Positions 21,509-27,260 of a DNA stretch of 37,122 nt are shown piece by piece. The notes below the pieces were generated by a model. It was not told the origin of the DNA. It saw only the letters and a list, made by a program, of their open reading frames with translations, and made no database searches. The translations under genes were made by a program, and so were the position numbers. The stretch spans positions 1-37,122 of the forward strand of contig JAGLLT010000014.1 in assembly GCA_023140385.1 (NCBI GenBank). The letters are read 5' to 3'. Positions within the stretch are counted from its first letter, which is position 1; each line of letters begins with the position of its first letter. The stretch is from Candidatus Omnitrophota bacterium. Its GTDB lineage: Bacteria; Omnitrophota; Gorgyraeia; JAGLLT01.

Positions 21509-22501
21509 ATGTGGTACTATTTAAAAGATATGTTAAAACAGGAAATTTTTAGAACTTTTTATGTGTTATTAATTTTGTTTTTGCCGCTTGCCGCCGGTTA
21601 TGGCTTGAGAAAGAAAAACCTTATACCCGGGCCGGAGCGCGTTTCAATACGGCTTATTGTGTTTTTGACCAAAACGGTTACGCCTTTTGTGGTTTTATTC
21701 TCTTTCTGGAAGCTTGAATTAACCAGCGCCAAAATCTTTACCCTGCCGCTGGTAGGAATGGCTATTTCCACGCTGGCTTTGGTGCCTGCTTTCTTTTTTG
21801 TAAAAGTTCACGGGTTAAACCGGAAGCAGGCGGGAAGTTATCTAACCTCAGCTATGTTCTCCAATATAGGCTATACATTGGGCGGCTTTATTGCTTTTGT
21901 TTTATACGGTGAAGCGGGCTTTGGCCTGACCGTCCTTTACTGTCTTTATTTTAAACCCTTTTACTATACCATCGGTTTTTATATAGCCGAAAATTACAGT
22001 TCCCAAAAGGGAGTAAAAATTAAAGATAATCTTAAGAAGGTTTTTACTGATGGTATAAGATTATTTCCTCTTTTGGGCCTCGCCGCCGGTATTGGGCTTA
22101 ACTTACTTGATGTACCCAGGCCGGGTTTTATACAACAGTTAAACGGTTTTTTGATACCCGCGACAACCTTTGTATATATGCTGGCCATCGGTATGACCTT
22201 AAAATTAAGGGCGATTAAGAGATTTAAGGTGCCGGTGCTTTCCATGAGTGTTATAAAATTTATCTGGTCGCCCCTTATAGGCTTAGCCATTGCTTATTTT
22301 TTGGGTTATCGTTTTATTCTGGGGGGTTTACTCTTTAAGGTAGCTTTGATTGAGTCCTTTATGCCCACGGCCATTACAAGCTTAATGCTGCCCGCTTTAT
22401 TCAATCTTGACCAGGATCTTTCAAATTCATGCTGGATTTTTACCACCCTCCTGCTCATCCCACTCTTGCCGGTTATGTTCTGGATATTAAGCCTTTTGTA
22501 A
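21509..22501 (+). CDS. AEC-family (auxin efflux carrier type) membrane transporter
   Basis: 330 residues with about ten hydrophobic helices and the two-half layout of the membrane-transport family PF03547. Near the start it reads FLPLAAGYGLRKKNLIPG; in mid-protein GSYLTSAMFSNIGYTLGGF; near the end ESFMPTAITSLMLPALFNLD, all typical. Substrates in bacteria include malate and other dicarboxylates, but cannot be assigned here. GGGAGAGA precedes the ATG. It is the last core gene before the cassette array. Confidence 0.85.
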   Translation: MWYYLKDMLKQEIFRTFYVLLILFLPLAAGYGLRKKNLIPGPERVSIRLIVFLTKTVTPFVVLFSFWKLELTSAKIFTLPLVGMAISTLALVPAFFFVKVHGLNRKQAGSYLTSAMFSNIGYTLGGFIAFVLYGEAGFGLTVLYCLYFKPFYYTIGFYIAENYSSQKGVKIKDNLKKVFTDGIRLFPLLGLAAGIGLNLLDVPRPGFIQQLNGFLIPATTFVYMLAIGMTLKLRAIKRFKVPVLSMSVIKFIWSPLIGLAIAYFLGYRFILGGLLFKVALIESFMPTAITSLMLPALFNLDQDLSNSCWIFTTLLLIPLLPVMFWILSLL

Positions 22502-22504
22502 CAT

Positions 22505-22553
22505 AAAAAAAGAGGGGGGTTAAGTTGCCCCCTCTTACTATGTCTCTTTTTTT
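22505..22553. terminator. Bidirectional intrinsic terminator
   Basis: AAGAGGGGG (22510-22518) pairs with CCCCCTCTT (22528-22536). On the minus strand the hairpin runs directly into seven Ts, an excellent terminator for the cassette genes. On the plus strand a T-run follows ten bases later, ending the AEC transporter transcript. Confidence 0.85.
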
Positions 22554-22656
22554 ACCTAACGGTTGAACTAAGTAACGTTGTAGGCACATAAAAATCAAAA
22601 ATTTCTAATTTTTGCGCGGCCGCTTATACAACATCCACTGAATTGCTTGGTTATAA
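22554..22656 (-). repeat. attC site 5 (left end of array)
   Basis: Plus-strand ends are ACCTAAC (22554-22560, the complement of the consensus GTTRRRY) and GTTATAAG (22650-22657). An inner stem GTTGTA/TACAAC lies around an AT-rich loop. The 16-mer TAACGGTTGAACTAAG (22557-22572) recurs exactly in the attC at 23957. The brnA stop lies 10 bases to the right. Confidence 0.75.
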
Positions 22657-22665
22657 GTTTATCTA

Positions 22666-22896
22666 CTATTTTGCGATGGCTTCTTCTAACCGTTCCGCAA
22701 CCCAAACTTTGATAATAGACTGACGAGGAACCCCGAGGCGCTTGGCTTCTTTATCAAGCGAATGAACCATCCAAATAGGAAAATCAACATTTACTCTCTT
22801 TTGTTCCTGCTCCGGCCTTCTGGCTTTTGAGAGATCTAAATACTTCTTAATGTTTTTGCCTTTATCAAATTTTTTATCAAATTCTTTAGCTTTCAT
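22666..22896 (-). CDS. brnA: BrnA-type / CopG-like antitoxin
   Basis: 76 residues. An acidic/basic N-terminus (MKAKEFDKKFDKGKNIKKYLDLSKARRP) is followed by a ribbon-helix-helix stretch: RVNVDFPIWMVHSLDKEAKRLGV and RQSIIKVWVAERLEEA. This is the usual partner of BrnT toxins: it binds the toxin and represses the pair's promoter. Its start overlaps the end of a broken brnT gene (22886-23101). It is thus an apparently intact antitoxin without an intact adjacent toxin; the other BrnT in the array (23589-23879) belongs to a different pair. Last gene of the cassette ending at attC 22554-22656. Confidence 0.85.
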   Translation of the reverse strand: MKAKEFDKKFDKGKNIKKYLDLSKARRPEQEQKRVNVDFPIWMVHSLDKEAKRLGVPRQSIIKVWVAERLEEAIAK

Positions 22897-23101
22897 ACAT
22901 TTCCACCTCCTCTGGTCTAGAGCGACGCACAGAGATAATTCTTAATTTTTCGTTACGATAAACAATAATTCCCGACCAACATTTTTCCTCAATCTTGCCA
23001 ACAACCAAAAATCTTGGTTCATCTACCGTCTTGGCAGGAATTTCAATTAAATCGGGATCATCCCATAATTTTTGGGCTTCAATAAATCAAATCCCATGCT
23101 T
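22886..23101 (-). pseudogene. brnT: BrnT-family toxin, 5'-truncated with in-frame stop
   Basis: Not annotated by simple ORF rules. The minus strand reads KHGI, then TGA (23087-23089), then FIEAQKLWDDPDLIEIPAK, EPRFLVVGKIEEKCWSG and IIVYRNEKLRIISVRRSRP, ending EEVEMYES with TAA at 22886-22888. This is the BrnT ribonuclease fold, with the conserved PRFLVVGKI and RIISVRRSR strands. The first 15 or so residues (up to the KHG motif) are missing: a TAA stop of the neighbouring lipoprotein gene directly precedes KHGI. The gene therefore lacks a start and has a stop. The truncation point coincides with a missing attC site. Confidence 0.8.
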
Positions 23102-23302
23102 TTATTCTCTTAGCCAAATGTGGAATACATCTTTAAACTCTTCCATTGTTAACTCCTGCATCGTTTTTCCATATTTATCCATTGCAATTTTCCTCGTGGT
23201 ACGGCCTCTGGACGGTGAATCATCTTTAGGAGTATTAGTGGTTTCACAGCACCCGGCTAAAAGAAAGATTAATAAAAAAAATAATATAATTCTCTTTTCC
23301 AT
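23102..23302 (-). CDS. Small lipoprotein, probably 3'-truncated cassette gene
   Basis: 66 residues with a clear lipoprotein signal (RIILFFLLIFLLAGC, Cys18 lipidated) and GAGGAAT 6 bases before the ATG, so it is expressed as a gene. The mature part is polar and has no recognisable domain. It begins right after attC 23326-23402 in cassette direction, as a cassette gene should. It ends against the brnT remnant with no attC between, so its original 3' end was probably lost in the same deletion. Confidence 0.65.
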   Translation of the reverse strand: MEKRIILFFLLIFLLAGCCETTNTPKDDSPSRGRTTRKIAMDKYGKTMQELTMEEFKDVFHIWLRE

Positions 23303-23325
23303 TATTCCTCAGCCCTTTTTATTTT

Positions 23326-23402
23326 CCCGTAACATGGAGATCAGGTATTTTATGGAGCGGCTTTGCCGCGAAATAAAATTGCCTGGATTGTTTTGTTATG
23401 AC
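23326..23402 (-). repeat. attC site 4
   Basis: Plus-strand ends CCCGTAAC (23326-23333) and GTTATGAC (23395-23402). The outer stem is CAGGTATTTTAT / ATAAAATTGCCTG, with an extra base in one arm as in the extrahelical bases of attC. The inner stem is GCGGC/GCCGC around TTT. The R'' box GTCATAAC is the exact complement of GTTATGAC at the start of the same cassette. The brnA stop codon lies inside R''. Confidence 0.85.
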
Positions 23403-23605
23403 CATTTAAATTGAGGTTTTCTATGTGATTGCGCGCAATCTCTAAGGTAAAGATTAATTAAGTTTTGATATGGGACGCCTGTTTCTCCAGCAAGAGATTT
23501 AAAATAATCAATCGTTTTCCGTTCAATTCTAATACTAATTTGCTGTTTTAGCCGTTTAACGTAAGGATTTTTTGTGGATTTTGAAAAATCATATTCTTTT
23601 CGCAT
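23396..23605 (-). CDS. brnA: BrnA-type antitoxin
   Basis: 69 residues, of the second BrnA-like kind: MRKEYDFSKSTKNPYVKRLKQQISIRIERKTIDYFKSLAGETGVPYQNLINLYLRDC. It has an N-terminal toxin-wrapping segment followed by a ribbon-helix-helix. It overlaps the end of its brnT partner by 17 bases, a standard toxin-first BrnTA operon. Its stop codon TAA is part of the attC R'' box. Confidence 0.88.
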   Translation of the reverse strand: MRKEYDFSKSTKNPYVKRLKQQISIRIERKTIDYFKSLAGETGVPYQNLINLYLRDCAQSHRKPQFKWS

Positions 23606-23879
23606 AGTATTGTTTCTCCTCCTTCTTTGTTGCTTTTCGTGCTGATATGATTCTTATTATTTCATCATTTTCTCTATAACAATGACATACTACAAGTATT
23701 CTTAAGCGCATGCTCATTCCTAAAAGCAAGAATCTATCCTCACTTTTAGAATGATCTGGATCATAGATAATTTGAGCAATATCGTCAAGAAAAACAGTCT
23801 GTGCTTCTTTAAAAGAAACCTGATGTTTCTTTTGGTTAATTTTACCCTTATTTTTATCCCAAACAAACTGTATATCCAT
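23589..23879 (-). CDS. brnT: BrnT-family ribonuclease toxin
   Basis: 96 residues with the RelE-like BrnT pattern. The N-terminus MDIQFVWDKNKGKINQKKHQVSFKEAQTVFLDD leads into RFLLLGMSMRLRILVVCHCYRENDEIIRIISARKATKKEE. BrnT cleaves mRNA and arrests growth until neutralised by BrnA. The KHQVSF and RIISARKA motifs place it clearly, and unlike the copy at 22886-23101 it is intact. First gene of its cassette, about 80 bases from the attC at 23957-24052. Confidence 0.88.
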   Translation of the reverse strand: MDIQFVWDKNKGKINQKKHQVSFKEAQTVFLDDIAQIIYDPDHSKSEDRFLLLGMSMRLRILVVCHCYRENDEIIRIISARKATKKEEKQYYAKRI

Positions 23880-23956
23880 AATAATTATACCATAATTATA
23901 AAATAATTACCACATTAAGTCAATAAATAGTTTTTTTATGATTTTTCTATTTTATC

Positions 23957-24052
23957 GTCATAACGGTTGAACTAAGCCGCGTGGGAATTAACATAAATCA
24001 GCTTTCTGCCACAAGCGCTTATTCCACGTCGGCTTCAGTGATTTGTTATCTG
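23957..24052 (-). repeat. attC site 3
   Basis: Plus-strand ends GTCATAAC (23957-23964) and GTTATCTG (24045-24052). The stem is AAGCCGCGTGGGAA / TTCCACGTCGGCTT, complementary except for extra bases in each arm, the classic imperfect attC stem. TAACGGTTGAACTAAGCCGCG resembles the reverse of well-known attC sites such as that of aadA cassettes (from memory). The stop codon of the next gene lies in R''. Confidence 0.88.
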
Positions 24053-24546
24053 GGAATATTAATAGGTTTTTCTTTCAGCACCTTTATTTTCAAACTTCTT
24101 ATCTTATCTTCGTCTTCAGATACATATTCAATATTTGTTTCTTTTTTACCATTTATTGTTTTTTTAACGACTTTGCATGAAATGCCATTTTCTTCTAATA
24201 GAGATATAAAATATTTATTTTGTTCCTCTGTGATAAATGAAATATTTGAAGGAAGCTGCTCCCCATTTTCTTCATAAATATCTTTGATTAAAGTTCTAAC
24301 CATTTTACTGTATTGGGATTCCCAAGCTATATAATCATTTCCGTCTTTATCAAATTGCTCCACGGTATATGGGATATTATTTTGTTTTAATAAATTGACT
24401 AGTTTTGTTTGTCTTTCAACATCTGAGAAATGAATATTGGGGTTTGGTTGTTTAATCTCATTATAGATAGATGGCGGTTTTTTACATGAAATTATAAACA
24501 CCATACTCAACAAAGAAACCATTAAAAATATTTTATTTCTTTTCAT
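24046..24546 (-). CDS. Cassette-borne lipoprotein, unknown function
   Basis: 166 residues from ATG 24546; the frame opens at GTG 24573, but that falls within the neighbouring attC and would put nine polar residues before the signal. The signal is MKRNKIFLMVSLLSMVFIISC with Cys21 lipidated. The mature part has two similar halves: LVNLLKQNNIPYTVEQFDKDG and FISLLEENGISCKVVKKTING. Each has a helix followed by a strand, suggesting a duplicated small alpha/beta unit such as SPOR- or DUF2007-like folds; no family is claimed. It fills one cassette between two attC sites. Confidence 0.75.
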   Translation of the reverse strand: MKRNKIFLMVSLLSMVFIISCKKPPSIYNEIKQPNPNIHFSDVERQTKLVNLLKQNNIPYTVEQFDKDGNDYIAWESQYSKMVRTLIKDIYEENGEQLPSNISFITEEQNKYFISLLEENGISCKVVKKTINGKKETNIEYVSEDEDKIRSLKIKVLKEKPINIPR

Positions 24547-24553
24547 CTTTTTA

Positions 24554-24633
24554 CAAATAACATTTAAACTCACCTGCCTTTGAGCGCGCCGTTTTCGGCG
24601 CGGGAAAAGGCAGGTGTAGTGCGTTGTTATAGG
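24554..24633 (-). repeat. attC site 2
   Basis: Plus-strand ends CAAATAAC (24554-24561) and GTTATAGG (24626-24633). A long stem: CACCTGCCTT/AAGGCAGGTG (10 bp), then CGCGCCG/CGGCGCG (7 bp) around TTTT, with unpaired bases between. Its R'' box CCTATAAC exactly complements GTTATAGG at the right end of the same cassette (25069-25076), 440 bases away. Confidence 0.88.
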
Positions 24634-24644
24634 TTATTTATATT

Positions 24645-25061
24645 TTAATCATGCTTCAAATGTCCAATTAGTTCTTTGTTTGTATCGGGGTATAGGATCT
24701 TCACCTTATAGTTATCTACATTTACTAGACAAGACCAGAAAAGTCTACTTCCAAGCAGATCTTTCTGAATGAAATGCAATATTTGGTGTCTCTGTTTTCC
24801 GAATTCATCATCCTCCGTTAATCTGTAATTTCCTATCAATTCAATGTGTCCCGTTGAGGACAACCCTAATTCTATTACAAGATAATGTTCTATCTCTTTT
24901 TTAGTATGGTTATCAATTTTTTTCCATGCTACTTCCAGTTTTTTGTCTGCCCCATAAGAAATAATGCTTTTCTCATTTTTTGTTTCTGCCAAGGTTTTGT
25001 TAGCAGCAGTGATAAATAAGCAAAGACATATAAACGTTATTGATAATATTTTTTTCTTCAT
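24645..25061 (-). CDS. Cassette-borne exported protein, unknown function
   Basis: 138 residues. The signal peptide is MKKKILSITFICLCLFITAANKTLAE with a likely cleavage after LAE or TLA. The mature part alternates charged strands (KLEVAWKKIDNHTKKEIEHYLVIELGLSSTGHIELIGNYR) and ends LIGHLKHD. No family recognised. GGAG lies 8 bases before the ATG. It stops 12 bases from attC 24554-24633 and starts 8 bases from the 25069 site, so it exactly fills a cassette. Confidence 0.75.
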   Translation of the reverse strand: MKKKILSITFICLCLFITAANKTLAETKNEKSIISYGADKKLEVAWKKIDNHTKKEIEHYLVIELGLSSTGHIELIGNYRLTEDDEFGKQRHQILHFIQKDLLGSRLFWSCLVNVDNYKVKILYPDTNKELIGHLKHD

Positions 25062-25068
25062 TTTTTCT

Positions 25069-25119
25069 CCTATAACAATTAATATACGGAATCCGTATTT
25101 TTTTGAAACTACGTTATTG
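25069..25119 (-). repeat. attC-like site 1 (right end of array)
   Basis: Plus-strand ends CCTATAAC (25069-25076) and GTTATTG (25113-25119) around stem ATACGG/CCGTAT with loop AAT. At about 51 bases it is short for an attC; it could be a degenerate attC or a secondary site. Its left end is strongly supported as a cassette junction by the perfect match to the next attC's R''. No gene is seen in the cassette that would belong to it (25120-25203). Confidence 0.6.
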
Positions 25120-25203
25120 TTTTAATAGGAATGTTGCCAATCACTCCTGATGTATTTATGTTTATTGTATGATGGTTCATTCAGCGACGTACCTTTAATA
25201 TTA

Positions 25204-25232
25204 ATTATTTCATTTTTAACAACTTTTGTCAA
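25204..25232 (-). promoter_or_regulatory. Promoter reading into the cassette array (Pc-like)
   Basis: On the minus strand TTGACA (25227-25232) and AATAAT (25204-25209) are 17 bp apart. It lies outside the last attC and points into the array, where an integron's cassette promoter would be. Divergent from the PilZ promoter, whose -35 begins 8 bp away. Confidence 0.6.
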
Positions 25233-25240
25233 TGAATAAC

Positions 25241-25270
25241 TTGACAAAATAGGAGCTTTTGTGGTATATT
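25241..25270 (+). promoter_or_regulatory. Promoter of the PilZ gene
   Basis: TTGACA (25241-25246) and TATATT (25265-25270), spacer 18. The 13-mer GTGGTATATTAAA around the -10 recurs exactly at the next promoter (25778-25790). A 5' leader of about 90 bases follows, holding two predicted hairpins (25309-25329 and 25337-25354); the second pairs CCTTTT with AAAAGG of the ribosome site. Confidence 0.7.
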
Positions 25271-25365
25271 AAATTTACAATGTTAACGCGCTCGCTTACC
25301 TAATGATCCCGTTCTTGGGGAGAATGGGACATATTGCCTTTTTCGACCAAAAGGAGAGATTGTGT

Positions 25366-25719
25366 ATGGATGCAAGCGGCTCTATCGAAAGAAGGTGTTT
25401 TTCTCGTTTTGACTGTGCCTTACCGGCGGAATATAAAACAATTGGCCTCCTTAATAACGACACGTTAACAGGCGCGATCAAAAATGTAAGTGAAGGCGGA
25501 ACCCGCCTGATTACAGATGATTTCATACCGCTTAATTCAAGATTAGTTTTAGCATTTAGCTTTCCTTTCAGAAACCGCAAAATTAAATCCCTTTGCAAAG
25601 TAGTTTGGACCAAAAGGTTCGCGACCCTTGCCAAATACGATTTGGGTGTTGAATTTTTGGATATGACAGGTAAATGCAAAGATGATATGGCGGCTTTCAT
25701 TAAAAGCAAACTATCCTGA
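25366..25719 (+). CDS. PilZ-domain protein
   Basis: 117 residues from ATG 25366, chosen because AAGGAGAG lies 9 bases upstream; the frame is open back to 25303, but that part is unlike the family. A single PilZ domain: ERRCFSRFDCALPAEY carries the RRxxxR arginines and KNVSEGGTRLI the NxSxGG motif, so both c-di-GMP contacts are intact. AFSFPFRNRKIKSLCKVVW and YDLGVEFLDM are the usual later strands. No fused effector. It is monocistronic by the look of the next promoter. Confidence 0.82.
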   Translation: MDASGSIERRCFSRFDCALPAEYKTIGLLNNDTLTGAIKNVSEGGTRLITDDFIPLNSRLVLAFSFPFRNRKIKSLCKVVWTKRFATLAKYDLGVEFLDMTGKCKDDMAAFIKSKLS

Positions 25720-25758
25720 GAAAAAAAGACACTCCTGCTCTTCCTTTTTTCTGTTTTC

Positions 25759-25787
25759 TTGACAAAGATAACCTTCAGTGGTATATT
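25759..25787 (+). promoter_or_regulatory. Promoter of bamD-like/lptE/holA operon, giving a nearly leaderless mRNA
   Basis: TTGACA (25759-25764), 17-bp spacer, TATATT (25782-25787). The ATG of the first gene is at 25795, so transcription should start at or within a base or two of the start codon. Confidence 0.75.
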
Positions 25788-25794
25788 AAAATAT

Positions 25795-26751
25795 ATGAAA
25801 AAAATAGGTTTTCTTTTATCTGTAATCGGGCTCATTTTTTTGTGTTTTTCGGATTGCCATGCCTTTTGGGTTTGGACACCTAAGACAAAAGGATGGGTAA
25901 ATCCTAAGCACGCGCCCAAATCAACGCCTCAGAAACAGTTTGACTACGCCAAGAGCTTTTATGATAACGAAGAATATAAAAGTGCGGCGGTGGAGTTTGA
26001 AAAGTTGGTGAACTCTTATTCCGGCTCTTCTCTGGCTCCTGACGCGGGTTATTATAGCGGGTTATCATATCAGAGGGAGGAGTTGTATTACAAAGCTTTT
26101 GTAGTTTACGATAAAATACTGTCCCAGTATCCCAACTCAAAAAGGACTTCCCAGATTGTTGAAAAGATGTATGAGATAGGCAATGTTTTTCTTGACGGAA
26201 AGAAGCGAAAAATTTTGGGATTGGAGTTACTGCCCGCCCTCGCGACGGCTGAACAAATATTCGCGACTATTGTTGACAATGCTCCATACAGTGAGCTTGG
26301 CGATGACGCCCAATTTCAAATGGGGGAGTGTTATAAAAAAATGAAAGAGTACGCCAAGGCTGTTGAAGCCTTTGAAAAGGTGATAAAAAAATATCCCGAA
26401 AGTTCTCTCGTAGATAATGCCCGGTATCAGATTGCCATTTGTTCTTTAATGGCCAGTCAGCCGTCAGAGTATGAACAGGGCAGTACCGATAAAGCAATAA
26501 GGGAATTTAAGGACTTTATTGATGAGACTCCTCCCGAAGATTTAGTGGAGGAGGCTCAAAAGGCCATAAGCCGGCTGGAAAGTAAAAAGGCCAAGCATGA
26601 GTATGAAATTGCCCAATATTATGAAAGCAGGCGCGGGTATGACAGCGCCATTATTTATTACCGGTCTGTTATAACAAATTATCCCGGGACGAAGTGGGCT
26701 GAAATGGCAAAAGAGAATTTAAAAAAGGTTAAAGAAAAGCAAAAGAAATGA
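25795..26751 (+). CDS. BamD-like exported TPR protein
   Basis: 318 residues from ATG 25795; an upstream in-frame TTG lies within the -35 box and is excluded. The signal segment is MKKIGFLLSVIGLIFLCFSDCHA, with a possible but poor lipobox. Five or so TPR units follow: QFDYAKSFYDNEEYKSAAVEFEKLV, APDAGYYSGLSYQREELYYKAF, DDAQFQMGECYKKMKEYAKAVEAFEKVIKKYP and a final EIAQYYESRRGYDSAIIYYRSVITNYPGT. This matches BamD/YfiO, the partner of BamA in outer-membrane protein insertion. The lptE neighbour supports an envelope role. It overlaps lptE as ATGA. Confidence 0.82.
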   Translation: MKKIGFLLSVIGLIFLCFSDCHAFWVWTPKTKGWVNPKHAPKSTPQKQFDYAKSFYDNEEYKSAAVEFEKLVNSYSGSSLAPDAGYYSGLSYQREELYYKAFVVYDKILSQYPNSKRTSQIVEKMYEIGNVFLDGKKRKILGLELLPALATAEQIFATIVDNAPYSELGDDAQFQMGECYKKMKEYAKAVEAFEKVIKKYPESSLVDNARYQIAICSLMASQPSEYEQGSTDKAIREFKDFIDETPPEDLVEEAQKAISRLESKKAKHEYEIAQYYESRRGYDSAIIYYRSVITNYPGTKWAEMAKENLKKVKEKQKK

Positions 26752-27260
26752 AAAGGTATAAAGCGGTCATTTTTCTGCTGATGTTTGTCAGCGGCTGCGG
26801 ATATACGGCCGGCTCTCTGATTCCATCGCATATTAAAACCATCTACGTGGAAACATTTACTAATAAAACATCAGAGCCAAATATTGAGTTGGACATTACG
26901 AACGCTATTAAAGATCGTTATGCCTGGGCCAGCTCTTTAAATATTGCCAACGACAAAGAGAACGCGGACTCAATGCTTCAGGGAGAAATTATTAACTTTG
27001 AGAAACAACCCGTTGCCTACGGCGCTAATAACGAAATTGCTGAATACAGGCTGATTCTAACAGTTAACCTTATCTATACGGATTTAAACAAAAACAAGAT
27101 AATATGGGAAGAGAAAAAGTTCAAGGCGGATTCCGAGTACTACACTACAATGAAAGAACAGAAGTTCAGCAGTACGAATTTAGACAAACAAGCCCTGATA
27201 GAGAACGCGGCAAAGGAGTTGGCCTTGGAAGTTGTAGCCAGAACGGTGGAAGGGTGGTAA
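26748..27260 (+). CDS. lptE: LptE-like LPS-assembly lipoprotein
   Basis: 170 residues. Lipoprotein signal RYKAVIFLLMFVSGC, Cys17 lipidated, followed at once by the family hallmark GYTAGSLIPSHIKTIYVETFTNKT. LptE plugs the LptD barrel and helps place LPS in the outer leaflet. Later segments EPNIELDITNAIKDRY, LQGEIINFEKQPVAYGANNEIAEYRL and LIENAAKELALEVV fit. It indicates an outer membrane, probably with LPS. Confidence 0.88.
   Translation: MKRYKAVIFLLMFVSGCGYTAGSLIPSHIKTIYVETFTNKTSEPNIELDITNAIKDRYAWASSLNIANDKENADSMLQGEIINFEKQPVAYGANNEIAEYRLILTVNLIYTDLNKNKIIWEEKKFKADSEYYTTMKEQKFSSTNLDKQALIENAAKELALEVVARTVEGW

Follow-up and report, generated by a model that had tools for sequence, protein, structure and literature searches.

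The attC array between the permease and PilZ genes

The window, the whole stretch of 37,122 nucleotides that was analysed, is one entire contig (C6) of its source genome (G000; 1.495 Mb in 57 contigs, 92.7% complete), to which Candidatus Omnitrophota MAGs are the closest named relatives. Core genes and tRNAs are present on the contig; a chromosomal location of the array described here is not proven. Between a permease gene and a gene for a PilZ-domain protein lies an AT-rich interval of ~2.7 kb (GC 0.29–0.38, cf. ~0.41 on either side) in which all likely genes are on the minus strand, as a first-pass annotation made from the sequence had stated. Read along that strand, the order is candidate Pc, attI, cassettes 1, 2 and 3, and a degenerate cassette 4. 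Scores in the following list are from an attC covariance model (R1) and an attI model (R2).

21509-22501, plus strand: left flank, Mem_trans permease (Pfam), neighbour of PilZ in three relatives
22553-22657, minus strand: degenerate last attC (R1 13.5 bits, E 0.55)
22560-23332, minus strand: degenerate cassette 4, 773 bp, with a lipoprotein-like ORF (23102-23302), a broken BrnT-like frame and a CopG-type antitoxin (22666-22896)
23326-23402, minus strand: attC of cassette 3 (R1 47.5 bits, E 3.3e-9)
23333-23963, minus strand: cassette 3, 631 bp, with a BrnT toxin (23589-23879) and a CopG/BrnA-type antitoxin (23396-23605)
23957-24052, minus strand: attC of cassette 2 (R1 46.4 bits, E 6e-9), whose L'' arm has two extrahelical bases
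23964-24560, minus strand: cassette 2, 597 bp, with a lipoprotein-like ORF of 175 aa (24046-24573) without a Pfam match over the cut-off
24554-24633, minus strand: attC of cassette 1 (R1 59.6 bits, E 4e-12; fold z -7.3)
24561-25075, minus strand: cassette 1, 515 bp, encoding a 138-aa protein (24645-25061) whose start resembles a signal peptide and which has no match in Pfam
25073-25106, minus strand: attI (R2 29.9 bits, E 2.5e-8)
25180-25230, no strand: putative junction left by intI loss; the intI of a same-genus genome (G384) sits here, and homology to its contig (L085) begins at window position 25226
25204-25232, minus strand: candidate Pc promoter reading into the cassettes (TTGACA-17-AATAAT, TG before the -10, 11/12 consensus match)
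25303-25719, plus strand: right flank, PilZ-domain protein (Pfam)

A search of Rfam returned tRNAs only and no attC family match, and we therefore built an attC model from intI-bearing relatives. IntI scored above the NCBIfam cut-off in 18 genomes of a 384-genome sample of the phylum, none of them in the window's family as represented there, and loci were retrieved around 20 IntI genes, many of which held chained attC arrays with matching R'/R'' boxes. Model R1 was made from 34 aligned attCs, none from the window, at 10 loci of IntI-bearing Omnitrophota genomes. A simple home-made attC scorer, which recovered three of the four window attCs along with false sites elsewhere, served solely to gather training sites. 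Across the 34 training attCs, 98.9% of cells were paired in the R1 structure, and the structure score collapsed once partners were shifted by 1–3 columns. A search of plasmids for IntI1 gave near-identical class 1 integrons only and was set aside.

With filters off, R1 recovered three strong attCs and one degenerate attC in the window, all in one orientation; the remaining matches reached at most 11.2 bits, save a match of 20.7 bits to the other strand of the 24554 hairpin. The plus strand is the attC bottom strand, and there the three strong sites, which have paired R and L boxes, gave the canonical hairpin (z -7.3, -2.1 and -3.6) with an R-box stem, spacer bulge and extrahelical base. The site at 22553-22657 folded no better than shuffles (z -0.5), and its R'-side half is an exact 16-nt repeat of the R'-side half of the 23957 attC. 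Near-copies of the 23326 attC were found in two arrays of intI-bearing genomes (L038 and L042). The first-pass annotation had proposed five structured sites of one orientation with imperfect stems and extra unpaired bases, and had suggested a covariance model and bottom-strand folding as checks. The stems and unpaired bases were as described in the strong sites, and the model found more than the two sites asked for; folding bore out the three strong sites but not the last, and the fifth (25073-25106) turned out to be attI. Elsewhere in G000, single attC-like sites adjoin RAYT-like transposase genes (L061:352-939 in C54 and L062:5874-6265 in C48), and the C54 gene is Y1_Tnp by Pfam.

Toxin-antitoxin and secreted cargo had been named at first pass: cassette 3 matched BrnT_toxin (8e-28) and CopG_antitoxin (4e-7) in Pfam, and the products of cassettes 1 and 2 are small proteins that are apparently exported. 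The BrnT-like frame of cassette 4 is interrupted by two in-frame stops. The sizes listed above correct the range of about 450–680 bp given at first.

Down the array, each R' agreed with its own cassette's R'' at 8/8, 7/8, 8/8 and 5/8 positions (cassettes 1 to 4). Random R'/R'' pairings reached 8/8 in 3.5% of cases and at least 7/8 in 13.8%, since unrelated pairs have the TAAC/GTTA core in common. The agreement was thus significant for three sites jointly (~2e-4) and not for one alone, and a permutation test of the pairing within the window alone was weak (2/24). Among relatives, most pairs of attI and a first attC agreed at 7 or 8 of 8 positions where the attC was strong. The complementarity that the first-pass annotation took as created only by recombination is therefore present but less diagnostic than claimed: the argument is good for the first three cassettes jointly and in relatives, and fails for the last unit.

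The attI site and candidate Pc promoter

The attI model R2 is a sequence-only model of 18 attIs from intI-bearing loci, and its second-best match in the window scored 8.3 bits, far from the 29.9 bits of the listed site. Similarity of this site to the attI stretch of several intI-bearing loci was well above that of shuffles. Crossover is expected between G (25076) and TTA, and the attI core GTTATAGG is complementary at 8/8 positions to R'' of the first attC. At most intI-bearing loci, ~440–520 bp separate attI from the start of the IntI core domain. We had first read 25073-25106 as a short attC, which was ruled out when R1 gave no minus-strand match there. Across 99 related genomes, attI matches occurred in 23 and attC matches in 24, with both in 19 (hypergeometric p 3e-12), and the attI model therefore tracks integrons rather than background.

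The candidate Pc stands back to back with the plus-strand promoter of PilZ, and three promoter-like sites were found in its region, cf. 1.3 expected in shuffles. By eye, the block TTGACA..TTGTTA..ATGA.ATAATTA also lies upstream of another attI of the same genus (L105). At present this promoter can probably drive transcription of the cassettes, which would be mobile only if an IntI acted in trans.

The intI promoter (upstream of intI, L034-L052) seems to repeat a palindrome that lies at attI in that genome (e.g. TACGAATTCGTA), and the sequence of this palindrome varies between genomes; it could possibly be a binding site for IntI or a repressor. The Omnitrophota IntIs of these loci have ~100–130 extra N-terminal residues before the core domain, with the motif LPEFQ/LPDFQ..FL, and this region had no Pfam match in the one protein tested.

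The locus in related genomes and the origin of the array

The permease and PilZ genes are adjacent, 88–171 bp apart, in three relatives that thus hold an empty site: G276 (Ca. Kappaea frigidicola, of the same family as G000), G385 (CSMAG_1427, of a different family) and G147. The first-pass annotation had called for such a comparison; because the flanking genes adjoin without the array, the relatives did not show the same gene order conserved without cassette boundaries, the outcome it had named as refuting.

The locus looks different in G384 (CSMAG_1507), a genome of the same genus as G000 whose permease is 95% identical to that of the window. Its contigs break at the permease-PilZ locus, and the PilZ-bearing contig (L085) opens with a 196-aa IntI C-terminus that lies directly upstream of PilZ and reads toward it. 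This fragment scored 293 bits against TIGR02249 (NCBIfam cut-off 265), shares 74% identity with the G175 IntI, and stops ~57 bp before DNA homologous to window 25226-27000 (88% identical). The N-terminal half was searched for and not found; the gene is cut by the contig end and may be incomplete.

No IntI was found at the window locus or elsewhere in the 92.7% complete G000, where the search gave only XerD, XerC and one phage-like recombinase; an intI could still lie in the missing part of the genome. The genome search suggested at first pass agreed with an integrase-less array. A phage-like tyrosine recombinase gene (L009:4523-8896, in C56 of G000) is followed by genes for a DNA methyltransferase and a DUF262-like protein, apparently a distinct mobile or defence island. 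Beside the orphan attIs of the window's family, a search for intI remnants gave none at E ≤ 0.01 except the G384 intI, and one marginal match (E 0.099) was taken as noise.

With at least two attCs less than 4 kb apart and no associated intI, the window array is a CALIN by operational definition. In calling it one, the first-pass annotation was right about an attC array that lacks an adjacent integrase but missed the attI, the candidate Pc and the same-genus intI at the locus. Given these three, it is not a stray group of attCs but an integron deleted for its integrase, and the region is very likely an integron of chromosomal type from which the integrase gene has been lost. The IntI C-terminus at the exact locus in a same-genus genome points to intI loss in the window's lineage; the comparison involves two genomes of one genus, and the direction, loss rather than gain, is the simplest reading.

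An integron comprising intI, Pc, attI and cassettes would have entered between the permease and PilZ genes in the ancestor of the genus. IntI would have put circular cassettes into attI through attI x attC recombination, of which the complementary R'/R'' pairs would be the still visible trace, and a later deletion between Pc and the PilZ promoter would have removed intI and its promoter. Left behind would be Pc, attI and four cassettes (two secreted or lipoprotein-like, a BrnT/BrnA pair and a decayed unit). We infer this recombination history, like the activity of Pc, from the arrangement of the sites.

An improbable alternative is that an attI-Pc unit was copied or moved to the window locus without intI, as a satellite platform served in trans by an intI elsewhere. 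The approximately five further attI-like sites in G000 speak for it, as do genomes with one intI, such as G119, that hold several attI-bearing arrays far from it; the intI in place at the window locus in G384 speaks against it, and G000 shows no intI able to act in trans. Such an origin as satellite platforms may apply to further attI arrays dispersed in these genomes. Still less probable is a true CALIN, in which IntI acting in trans inserted cassettes at a secondary site (attG) that never had an integrase. Cassette arrays are known to arise outside integrons through attG insertion (see the discussion in PMC12444791), and no intI adjoins the window array. We rejected this origin: the insertion point is not a bare, minimal GTT but a full-length attI that matches the 18-locus model over 34 nt, and intI is present at the locus in G384. 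That the supposed attCs are hairpins formed by chance, or structured repeats of the REP/RAYT type, might be suggested by two single attC-like sites beside RAYT-like genes in G000 and by the fact that any one R'/R'' agreement could be chance; this reading is barely credible against scores of 46–60 bits, the spacing, the extrahelical bases, a different gene in each unit, an attI at the correct end, and sites of the same types chained in arrays beside true intI genes.

Dispersed attI sites and comparison with known integrons

The integrase-deleted integron of the window was accompanied in G000 by further attI-like sites with no intI nearby (C4:9115, C4:1234, C18:7954, C54:968 and C38:28352; L101, L102, L061 and L064). 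About nine such sites were found in G047 (CSMAG_1405, also of the same family), two in G384 and two in G385, and many of these orphan attIs are followed by an attC cassette, with 7–8 of 8 positions matching between its R'' and the attI core. The C38 site in G000 heads a decayed array of ~six attCs that is rich in toxin-antitoxin genes.

Additional attI-led arrays were also found in intI-bearing genomes: three in G119, which has one intI, on other contigs or ~70 kb away; one each in G019 and G159; and two or three in G033, where one unit may be the contig-split continuation of the main integron. A case analogous to the loss proposed for the window, but with a remnant of intI, is a satellite of G119 (L119:5377-5496, C5), in which 107 bp identical to the start region of the main intI jump across a large internal deletion to the C-terminal end of intI. 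At least that satellite therefore descends from an integron that was copied and then lost its intI by deletion. Several satellites lie directly behind housekeeping genes. An orphan attI directly follows gltD (glutamate synthase small subunit, recognised from protein sequences) in G000, G119 and G019 (L064, L120 and L122), three genomes of two families, and this placement reflects either shared ancestry or a preferred site. We tentatively propose that Omnitrophota could have a distributed integron system, in which one IntI, or none after its loss, serves several scattered attI-Pc platforms, often behind housekeeping genes like gltD, and in which the platforms, the window array included, are copied integrons minus intI; we lean slightly against this broader view.

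CALINs, a category of IntegronFinder, are thought to be degraded integrons (PMC9024848). The window array is like them in having at least two attCs of one orientation, no nearby intI and few cassettes, and differs in that it retains attI and a candidate Pc and that a partial intI occupies the same locus in a same-genus genome. Loss of intI with retention of the array has been described in Xanthomonas, where sedentary chromosomal integrons at ilvD (PMC12444791) likewise have intI deleted or absent in some members and the array at the same locus; here the hosts are Ca. Omnitrophota MAGs, the locus is another one, the array is small and each genome has several further attI-bearing arrays. Integrons of archaeal MAGs (PMC9668308) are also from uncultured lineages, are mostly CALINs and had their attI recognised by comparison, whereas in this bacterial phylum attI is kept without intI and is repeated at several loci. 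In mobile integrons, attI sequences shown to recombine also occur at unusual positions in arrays, as Delta-attI-type gene cassettes (PMC12901181); those attIs stand behind a cassette gene of class 1 integrons, whereas here many orphan attIs lead arrays with a complementary first cassette. We found no description of integrons in Omnitrophota in the literature searched. Within that literature, the kind of array is already known, and what appears to be new is that attI is retained and dispersed in an uncultured phylum.

Most integrase-less arrays are catalogued as CALINs, and their origin, by loss of intI or by insertion in trans, is usually unsettled because attI is recognisable only in a few classes. 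Here the phylum-level attI model shows that the docking site was kept and a same-genus IntI fragment lies at the locus, and the probable intI loss is therefore directly readable. With this model, several platforms that lack an integrase were found per genome, which makes it a directly testable question whether one IntI runs several loci. In G384 (L087:6660-8456, C194), one cassette behind an orphan attI, beside a pyrophosphatase pump gene, encodes an AAA ATPase (AAA_21/AAA_15) and is possibly defence cargo.
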